Below are positions 36,198-38,531 of a stretch of 47,835 nucleotides of DNA, piece by piece. The translations under genes were made by a program, and so were the position numbers. Position 1 is the first letter of the stretch. Each line of letters starts with the position of its first letter. Under the pieces are notes generated by a model. It did no database searches, was not told the origin of the DNA, and saw only the letters and a program-made list of their open reading frames with translations. Source of the DNA: Singulisphaera sp. (GTDB lineage Bacteria; Planctomycetota; Planctomycetia; Isosphaerales; Isosphaeraceae). The stretch lies in the NCBI GenBank assembly GCA_027451445.1, contig DAIDJG010000288.1:1-47835 (forward strand). Reading direction: 5' to 3'.

Positions 36198-37421
36198 ATG
36201 AACGAGTCCATGCAGGATCACGTACTCCTGGTCCCTTTCGCCCCCCCACCGGAAACGTGGGAGGCCGATACCAGCGACGATCCGTTCTTCGAACTCGACG
36301 AGCCCGTCATTCTCGAGGCACGGCCGGGATTCTTAAGGCGCATCGCGCGGGGGATCGGATCCGTTTGCGAGTGGCTGTTCGGGGCGTTCGCACTCGTACT
36401 GGGTCTCGCGATCCTGTCGGCGATCCCGGTGCTTCAGCTTCTCGGCTTCGGCTACCTGCTCGAAGCCGGTGGGCGGGTGGCCAGGTCGGGTCGGCTGCGC
36501 GACGGGTTCATCGGCTACCGCAAGGCAGCGAAAGTCGGTCGGATCGTCATCGGCTGCGGCTTGATGATCCTGCCGCTTCAGCTCATTTCGTCACTGGCCA
36601 CCGACGCGGCCATCATCAATCCGGGGGGCCGAGTCGCCTCGGGCTGGCGCACCGCCTTGATTGTCATTACGGTTCTGGCGTTCCTTCACATCAGTATTGC
36701 TTGTGCCCGCGGCGGCAGGCTGCGGTATTTTCTCTGGCCGTTCACGAATCCCTTCTGGCTCGTGCGCCAATTGCGGGCAGGGGGATTCTACCGGTCCGCC
36801 CGCGATGGCGTTTGGGATTTTGTCGCCGCCCTGCGGCTGCCCTATTACTTTCGGCTCGGGCTCCTCGGCTACGTCGGAACCCTGGCCTGGCTTGTCGTGC
36901 CGGTCACATTGCTGGCCGCCGGGCGGCGGGTGGCAATCCTGGGATTCCTCGGTGCACTGTTGCTCGCGATCGTGTCCCCCGCGCTCCTGTTCCTTCAGAT
37001 GCGTTTCGTCGTCCAGAATCGCTTCGGCGCCATGTTCGAGTTCCGGGAAGTGCGCCGGGATTTCCAGCGTGCGCCGTGGGCGTTCGCGTTTGCATTTTTC
37101 ATCACTGCGCTCTTCGCCGTCCCTCTCTACCTCTTGAAGATCGAAATGATCCCGCGAGAGACGGCGTGGCTACCCGCCTTGGTATTCCTGGCGTTCATCT
37201 TTCCCGCACGCTTGCTCGCCGGCTGGTCGTTCTCGCGTTCCCAACGCCACGAACAGCCGCGCCACTGGTTCTTCCGTTGGACCGGCCGGCTCGCCCTCGT
37301 TCCGTTTGCGATGGCTTATGTGTTGATCGTTTTCATCACTCAGTTCACCGCGTGGCACGGTTTCTGGAGCCTCTACGAGCAGCATGCCTTCATGCTGCCG
37401 GTGCCGTTCGTAAGCATGTGA
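36198..37421 (+). CDS. Multi-pass membrane protein, unknown function
   Basis: 407 residues with at least six hydrophobic segments, among them FALVLGLAILSAIPVLQLLGFGYLL (about 67-90), TALIVITVLAFLHISIACA, LGLLGYVGTLAWLVVPVTLLA, AILGFLGALLLAIVSPALLFL and a C-terminal FAMAYVLIVFITQF. A short acidic N-terminus (DTSDDPFFELDEP) precedes them. The first pair with the GYLLEAGGRVARSGRLRDGF segment looks like a DUF4013-type organisation, but the match is weak. The start at 36198 is chosen over the GTG at 36174; neither has an ideal ribosome site. The gene is divergent from the second DUF1549 gene and ends 56 bp before a perfect 32-bp inverted repeat. No function can be assigned. Confidence 0.8.
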   Translation: MNESMQDHVLLVPFAPPPETWEADTSDDPFFELDEPVILEARPGFLRRIARGIGSVCEWLFGAFALVLGLAILSAIPVLQLLGFGYLLEAGGRVARSGRLRDGFIGYRKAAKVGRIVIGCGLMILPLQLISSLATDAAIINPGGRVASGWRTALIVITVLAFLHISIACARGGRLRYFLWPFTNPFWLVRQLRAGGFYRSARDGVWDFVAALRLPYYFRLGLLGYVGTLAWLVVPVTLLAAGRRVAILGFLGALLLAIVSPALLFLQMRFVVQNRFGAMFEFREVRRDFQRAPWAFAFAFFITALFAVPLYLLKIEMIPRETAWLPALVFLAFIFPARLLAGWSFSRSQRHEQPRHWFFRWTGRLALVPFAMAYVLIVFITQFTAWHGFWSLYEQHAFMLPVPFVSM

Positions 37422-37477
37422 AGCCACGCTGCAATCGAATCAGCGTCTACGACGGACGAGGATCACCGGCGATCGAG

Positions 37478-37543
37478 CATCGAGAGTCGACTTTCGCTCC
37501 GCGAAAGAAAATTCTTTCGCGGAGCGAAAGTCGACTCTCGATG
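37478..37543. repeat. Perfect 32-bp inverted repeat with 2-nt centre
   Basis: The left arm 37478-37509 is the exact reverse complement of the right arm 37512-37543, with AA between. Each arm also holds its own small hairpin CTTTCGC-n3-GCGAAAG, so the DNA can fold as one long stem or as two short stems. It lies between convergent genes and may end both transcripts, or be a dispersed repeat. There is no T-tract. Confidence 0.9.
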
Positions 37544-37580
37544 TTTGCGCGGCGCGCACGGAAACCCGGACACCAAGACG

Positions 37581-38531
37581 TCACTGTGAAGCCGCTGCCT
37601 TCCCCGTCTCCTTGGGCAGCAGATGGGCGTCAAACCAGTCGGCGAACGCCGCGACGTCTTTGGTGGAGTCGGCCCAGCCGTGCGCGGCGTTGGGCTTCAC
37701 GATTAACTTCGCCTCGACTCCAAACTGCTTGAGCTTGCTGACCATGATCTCGGCTTGCTGAATCGGCACGAGTTTGTCCGCATCGCCGTGCACGATCAGG
37801 GCAGGGGGGTCGTCTTCGCTCACGTGCGTGATGGGCGAAATCTTGCGGCCGATCTCCAGGACCTTCTCCTCATCGGTGATCGGTTCGAACTTGTGCGACT
37901 TGGGGTCGAGCTCGTGGAAGTCGAACGGCGCCTTGAAATCCTTGAGAATCCCCCGTCCGAGCGCATTCTCACCCGGCTTGCCGTAGTTGAGGAAGTCGGT
38001 TGGCGGATAGAAGCAGGCAACGGCCTGGACGCGGCTGGACGTCCGATCGATGGGATCCTTCGCTTTCGGATCACCGAGGTCGCCCGCCGTTCCTTGCATG
38101 AGCGAAAGGTGCCCCCCCGCTGAGCCGCCCGTGATCCCGATTTGATCGGGATCGATGTCATAGTCCTTGGCGTGGAACCGGATGAAACGGACCGCGCGAT
38201 TCATGTCGAGGAGCACGTCGGGAATCGTATAGCGTGGTTGACTTCCATGCACAACTGCAAAGACCGTGTACCCTCGGTCCAGGAACACGCGGGCGTAATC
38301 GATCGGAATGAAGTCGTGCGACGAGAACCAACCCCCGCTGACTACCAGAATGATCCCTCGACCGTTGGGTTTCTGTTTCGGCGTAAATATGTCCATCGTC
38401 AGCGCCGTACCGAACTTCCGGCCGTAGATCACATCTTCGCGCCGCGTAAAGTCCGCGCTGTCTGCTCCTTGAGTGGTTGAGAAAAGACCGCAGGTTAGCA
38501 CGAACGTGATCAACAAAGACGGACGACTCAT
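37581..38531 (-). CDS. Secreted alpha/beta hydrolase (esterase/lipase-like)
   Basis: 316 residues. A signal peptide (about 1-22, MSRPSLLITFVLTCGLFSTT) is followed by an alpha/beta-hydrolase fold. The nucleophile S137 sits in GITGGSAGGHLSLM (GxSxG), the acid is D250 or D252 in VHGDADKLVP, and the histidine is H284 in NAAHGW. ILVVSGGWFSSHDFI near residue 61 is the oxyanion-hole region, with an HGG-like turn replaced by SGGW. This pattern is that of planctomycete BD-FAE-like esterases that act on polymer-linked or small esters. The ATG at 38531 is preferred: the longer frame to 38741 overlaps the neighbouring gene with no family similarity. It lies 146 bp after the co-directional 667-residue membrane protein gene. 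Confidence 0.88.
   Translation of the reverse strand: MSRPSLLITFVLTCGLFSTTQGADSADFTRREDVIYGRKFGTALTMDIFTPKQKPNGRGIILVVSGGWFSSHDFIPIDYARVFLDRGYTVFAVVHGSQPRYTIPDVLLDMNRAVRFIRFHAKDYDIDPDQIGITGGSAGGHLSLMQGTAGDLGDPKAKDPIDRTSSRVQAVACFYPPTDFLNYGKPGENALGRGILKDFKAPFDFHELDPKSHKFEPITDEEKVLEIGRKISPITHVSEDDPPALIVHGDADKLVPIQQAEIMVSKLKQFGVEAKLIVKPNAAHGWADSTKDVAAFADWFDAHLLPKETGKAAASQ

Follow-up and report, generated by a model that had tools for sequence, protein, structure and literature searches.

A perfect palindrome between convergent genes of a Singulisphaera genome is probably an inverted dimer of a GTCG-footed REP unit

What is the nature of a long, perfectly symmetrical palindrome lying between two convergent genes of a planctomycete? 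The stretch of DNA that we analysed (henceforth the window) comprises 47,835 nucleotides of a Singulisphaera sp. contig (DAIDJG010000288.1), and the palindrome occupies positions 37478-37543. Its two arms (37478-37509 and 37512-37543) are exact complements of 32 bp each, separated only by the dinucleotide AA. Each arm contains GTCGA followed by CTTTCGC-TCC-GCGAAAG, that is, a foot (GTCG), one further base and a hairpin with a 7-bp stem and a 3-nt loop. On the + strand the left foot lies at 37486-37489 and its hairpin at 37491-37507, while the right unit reads on the - strand, with its hairpin at 37514-37530 and its foot at 37532-37535. The palindrome resides in a 159-bp gap (37422-37580) separating two convergent reading frames: a + strand frame that stops at 37421, 56 bp before the palindrome, and for which a Pfam search gave no match, and a - strand frame with a BD-FAE/alpha-beta hydrolase domain (Pfam) whose stop codon begins at 37581, 37 bp past the palindrome. 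On the evidence below we hold with good confidence that the palindrome is an inverted dimer of a GTCG-footed REP unit, a miniature mobile element resembling a REPIN.

The palindrome is far beyond chance. At 32 bp, it is the longest perfect inverted repeat of the window (spacers of 0-8), the next best measuring 13 bp once the element is removed, and the longest perfect inverted repeats in eight mononucleotide shuffles of the window span 8-12 bp. Its folding z-score is -11.1, and none of 200 shuffles proved equally stable. Sequence, shuffles and folding thus confirm what had been described from the letters alone, a nested 32-bp perfect inverted repeat with an AA spacer and 7-bp inner hairpins between convergent genes. 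The sequence-only reading had also likened the element to a structural switch that would alternate between a single long stem and two shorter ones. The sequence allows either fold, but the long stem is the more stable by 45 kcal/mol as RNA (-60.3 versus -15.2 kcal/mol) and by 28 kcal/mol as DNA (-41.2 versus -13.1 kcal/mol), and the units found elsewhere are either single or paired across a linker of ~22 nt, so that we regard a two-state switch as very improbable indeed.

A strong stem placed shortly past the end of one gene and shortly before the end of the other could first of all serve as a bidirectional transcription terminator or as a stabiliser of the mRNA 3' ends of both convergent genes. 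No T-run follows the 32-bp stem on either strand, however, with three T after the stem on the + strand and none on the other side, and the matches returned by a terminator scan correspond to the inner hairpins, among 22 sites in all compared with 15.5 +/- 3.6 expected. Moreover, the REP unit is distributed patchily over genera and adjoins transposase genes, as described below. We therefore reject an intrinsic terminator as the main identity of the palindrome and consider the terminator or stabiliser explanation improbable; any effect of the palindrome on the 3' ends of both genes would be secondary. A known RNA family was likewise rejected as its identity, since none of 4227 Rfam families matched the window at gathering score.

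The unit recurs throughout this genome. In the 10.9-Mb assembly (622 contigs, 96.4% complete) the 17-base core of the hairpin is present in 54 exact copies, compared with none for the reversed control. These copies group into 35 sites, all of which we inspected. Inverted dimers with perfect arms of 21-34 bp make up 18 of the 35 sites, a share that is a biased census as the sites were picked by the exact core, and three of the 18 (on contigs C50, C55 and C523) have identical sequence at contig edges and may represent fewer physical copies. The other 17 sites hold single units or units whose partner is diverged or missing. With their 32 bp, the window arms rank second among the 35 sites, behind a 34-bp pair on contig C529. 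A covariance model built from 15 dimers, the window copy included, gave 56 matches at E <= 0.01 on both strands among the 150 of 9515 first-look candidates that were scored, and the top score among these belonged to the window copy, itself a training sequence.

The perfection of the arms had been taken as a sign of recent origin or active maintenance. The idea of maintenance stands only in part: perfect arms are common in this genome, yet they are so because many copies are near-identical. In a test for covariation between the arms, 9 cells were changed on both sides compared with 5.7 +/- 1.7 in shuffles, and 25 of 500 shuffles reached as high a value; as the 15 rows had been chosen for exact cores in both halves, the inner pairs were unable to vary. 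With many dimers near-identical and the covariation signal weak, the perfect arms of the window copy fit a near-consensus member of a family and do not require active maintenance.

Outside this genome, the core was sought in a sample drawn from across the phylum, and the exact core is present in 5 of 392 genomes, this one counted. Within the class, 32 of 297 genomes and 23 of 154 genera have the footed unit GTCGNCTTTCGCNNNGCGAAAG, with a patchy distribution that includes only 2 of the 45 genomes of the window's own family. Its matches number 516 in genome G506, 119 in G558 and 97 in G593; many other genomes have no more than one or two. The reversed-pattern control matched a single time, in a single genome, in the phylum search and again in the class search. 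The sequence-only reading had placed similar CTTTCGC-TCC-GCGAAAG hairpins in other planctomycete genomes, and this proved right, in the phylum and class searches and at the named transposase loci described below. Since the core occurs in other planctomycetes as well as in 54 copies here, it is not confined to a single place, and its copy number, its patchiness and its position around transposase genes elsewhere uphold the idea of a dispersed and apparently mobile hairpin repeat. An apparent strand bias of the REPs in G646 was dropped, as - strand partners lie at the same sites as the + strand matches. In another genome, G339, the REP dimers of L059 and L064 sit close to the edge of a 1.67-kb repeat whose copies at two places in that genome share 98% identity.

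Where does the repeated unit begin? We aligned foreign half-units, and since they were picked for the GTCG foot (54 of 58 had it, most loci having been found through it), only the positions outside the foot are informative. Across these 54 half-units the commonest base reaches a frequency of 0.83 at position -8 and 0.65 at -7, and ranges from 0.26 to 0.44 at the other positions out to -45. From this conservation and the drop that follows it, the repeated unit starts just outside the foot.

A RAYT-like transposase gene accompanies the unit in other planctomycetes. In G646, two REP places enclose a weak Y1_Tnp match (E 2.1e-5). In this stretch and in two others with closely spaced REPs, from G584 and G339, genes of ~220 codons with NHVH, WQQ and YIRxNG motifs have exact REPs on both sides. 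The three RAYT-like proteins share 59-65% mutual identity. Against the NCBIfam model 'REP-associated tyrosine transposase', two of them score 51.2 and 42 bits (E 1.2e-13 and 8.4e-11), under its 80-bit cut-off, and a Pfam search of one gave no match. Ten of the 297 class genomes have a single match to these proteins that is full-length and at least 55% identical; the footed REP occurs in nine of these ten genomes compared with 23 of the 287 others, and in six of the ten exact cores lie on both sides of the gene. Similarly, among 33 named RAYT loci, which share genomes with the class set and are therefore not independent of it, the exact core lies near the gene in 14 and on both sides in 12. The core-flanked loci include Roseiconus nitratireducens, Candidatus Laterigemmans baculatus and a Mariniblastus MAG, as well as two loci of Rhodopirellula baltica BR-MGV, one of them matched over 22 residues only.

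The hairpins that flank these genes follow a common plan even where the exact core is missing. In a search limited to GTNG feet, 7-bp stems and loops starting with TC, such a hairpin lies within 400 bp of the gene at 25 of the 33 named loci, at 21 of them on both sides, and is absent within that distance at the remaining eight; the same pattern has no match in ~500 control stretches of the window. Of the 81 hairpins so recorded, 75 have the foot GTCG. Where the exact core is missing, many loci retain the plan of GTCG, a single further base, a 7-bp stem and a TCC loop, and their stems differ in sequence yet remain complementary (GGATCGC, GGTTCGC, TGTTCGC, CGATCGC and others). As far as the sequences at these planctomycete loci indicate, REP and transposase vary together. 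Against a strict one-to-one link, 23 of the 32 REP-positive class genomes have no full-length RAYT match of at least 55% identity. The best RAYT match in G506, with its 516 REP matches, reaches only 44%; conversely, G572 has a 65% RAYT match and no footed REP of this core, and in G564 the RAYT match is split into two pieces and no REP of this core is found. In the window's own genome, no RAYT homologue was detected at E <= 0.001 in the 96.4% complete assembly, and since none of its nine Y1 loci carries the core, an own-genome Y1 element was rejected as an explanation.

The REPIN-like identity of the palindrome thus rests on the high copy number, the pairing of units as inverted dimers, the end of homology shortly beyond the foot, a patchy distribution over genera and a RAYT gene between exact REPs elsewhere. 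By analogy with known REP/RAYT systems, the likely mechanism is REP/RAYT mobility: a RAYT would recognise the foot and the hairpin in single-stranded DNA, would cut at the foot and hairpin and would help the dimer to be copied into further intergenic regions. Lying between two convergent genes, the window copy itself is most likely immobile.

How does this element compare with REPs that have been described? It shares with the REPIN/RAYT systems of Pseudomonas and Stenotrophomonas a short hairpin preceded on its 5' side by a tetranucleotide foot, a high copy number, an arrangement in inverted dimers and, here in related genomes, an HuH/Y1 transposase gene flanked by the same REP. It differs from them in its foot, GTCG set one base off the stem in place of the published GTAG or GTGG, in an identical core over many genera, in a genome where no cognate RAYT was found, and in the many copies that lie within a MITE in this genome. 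We tested for the published foot and for a RAYT in the same genome and found neither, so that we regard the element as a variant REP/RAYT system with a GTCG foot, which, judging from this likeness, would work like a REPIN. In the text available from PMC2817692, REP heads are GT(A/G)G and RAYT and REP co-evolve. The available part of PMC6006769 predicts REPs with GTAG or GTGG feet and describes REPs as species-specific. The class 3 TnpA_Y1 proteins that it characterises by a Y----Q motif and a CnGA foot were rejected as a match for the present system, as three RAYTs have YIRxNG and the foot is GTCG. In PMC3733652, as far as its available text goes, most REPs are sorted into GTAG and CGTC families. 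The CGTC-tagged REPs are likewise palindromic and often form inverted dimers, yet they have the tag CGTC, stems of 8-9 bp and loops of 4-5 nt, and no transposase association is reported for them in that text, whereas the present unit has GTCG, a 7-bp stem, a 3-nt loop and flanks RAYT genes; in tag, stem and loop the window element thus falls outside the CGTC group. The same text lists R. baltica among the species in which several REP families coexist with numerous genes for tyrosine transposases, a likeness within the same species group, although it files these families under GTAG repeats; this comparison, made by text, concerns families that may or may not include the present unit. Neither the exact core nor its shorter form was found in the literature that we searched.

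Many copies of the dimer in this genome lie within a larger repeated element. Its 15-bp terminal inverted repeat (TIR), TTTTGAAGTTGCGCG, has 55 matches with at most one mismatch in the genome compared with one for the control, and 20 distinct MITEs of 81-285 bp could be extracted with both TIRs. Of 19 MITEs with both flanks, 13 have an 8-bp target duplication in which seven or eight of the eight bases match, and six do not. A C-rich palindrome often provides the target, its centre, TTCCCAAG or TTGGGAAG, being the part that is duplicated. These elements resemble the prokaryotic MITEs of cut-and-paste insertion sequences in their TIR, their 8-bp target duplications, their size and the presence, at contig edges, of a larger element with the same TIR, and differ from them in having a REP dimer at the centre. 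We found five left and four right ends of that larger element, all at contig edges, the right ends with an open frame running to the gene end. From these ends an autonomous relative of the MITE probably exists that was not assembled. The body of the TIR-bearing insertion sequence is absent from the assembly; among 297 genomes, its putative 34-residue C-terminus recurs in only two, at four contig edges here and in one 50% identical stretch without the TIR in G451.

The dimer is central in four MITEs of 193 bp and two of 217 bp, and eight MITEs of 150 bp lack a 43-bp segment bounded by a pair of imperfect direct repeats of 20 bp, AGCGARAGTCGACTYTCGCT. The two repeats differ at two positions, and all three junctions that these positions allow were seen, in 2, 1 and 5 elements, as would be expected if the palindrome had been deleted repeatedly between the direct repeats. 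For one pair of short and long forms (L069 and L055), both at contig edges, the difference may stem from the assembly, a caveat that leaves the deletion pattern, which is independent of the pair, untouched. The 150-bp forms resemble the double-foot REP that, in the text available from PMC6006769, a central deletion of a dimer could yield.

Did the window copy itself arrive as the centre of such a 150-290 bp element, carried by a cut-and-paste type transposase and since decayed until only its centre can be recognised? At 18 of the 35 core sites the TIR is present with at most three mismatches on at least one side, compared with 14 of 2000 random 200-bp stretches, which reach three mismatches and none fewer. 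The ~20 nt outside the left arm of the window copy (37458-37477) also still resemble the MITE interior (nhmmer alignment 37500-37458, E 8.6e-6). The resemblance ends there, however: the best TIR candidates of the window copy have 6 of 15 mismatches on each side, which is chance level, so that no MITE ends can be recognised although its 66-bp centre is perfect. In addition, the 16 half-units of eight other dimer sites without TIRs are most conserved at positions -8 to -1 and fade by about -17. We consider a decayed MITE less probable as an explanation of the window copy than a REPIN-like element, though a more serious contender than a terminator; either a RAYT or a MITE may have brought the dimer to this place. 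Judging from the anatomy of the elements, the MITE with its central dimer probably spread the dimer further in this genome; an ancestral dimer moved by a RAYT would then have been captured by the MITE in this lineage and have spread partly with it.

Taken more broadly, and as a proposal that we put forward tentatively, the GTCG-footed, TCC-looped REPs and their RAYTs would form a branch of REP/RAYT elements that spread horizontally through the Planctomycetia and would be missed by searches restricted to GTAG and GTGG. In the present lineage a dimer without a transposase of its own would have switched vehicle and now multiply at the heart of a MITE of the cut-and-paste type, for which a second palindrome (CCCCCCCTTCCCAAGGGGGGG) is a frequent insertion target. 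With one footed REP core shared by 23 of 154 sampled genera, often beside its transposase, many natural pairs are at hand in which RAYT/REP co-evolution and transfer can be tested. A REP dimer travelling on a transposon of the cut-and-paste type would illustrate how REPs can persist once their own transposase is gone, and the recurrent loss of 43 bp provides a natural record of palindrome instability.

Several individual copies merit mention. The C-rich palindrome of the CCCCCCCTTCCCAAGGGGGGG type, with TTCCCAAG at its centre, hosts MITEs at L069, L083, L087 and other loci and seems to be a dispersed repeat itself. A TIR element near the left end of locus L104 (contig C157) runs on into sequence whose motifs looked like the start of a group II intron, a guess that an Rfam search did not confirm, as it gave no match. 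In the MITE L092 (contig C20, 25271-25420) both TIRs share the same base change (TTCTGAAG and CTTCAGAA), a pattern that copying of one end onto the other would produce. Finally, L103 (contig C448, 15347-15427) is an 81-bp miniature of the TIR family; its contig also holds a gene for a Y1 transposase, ~2.7 kb away.
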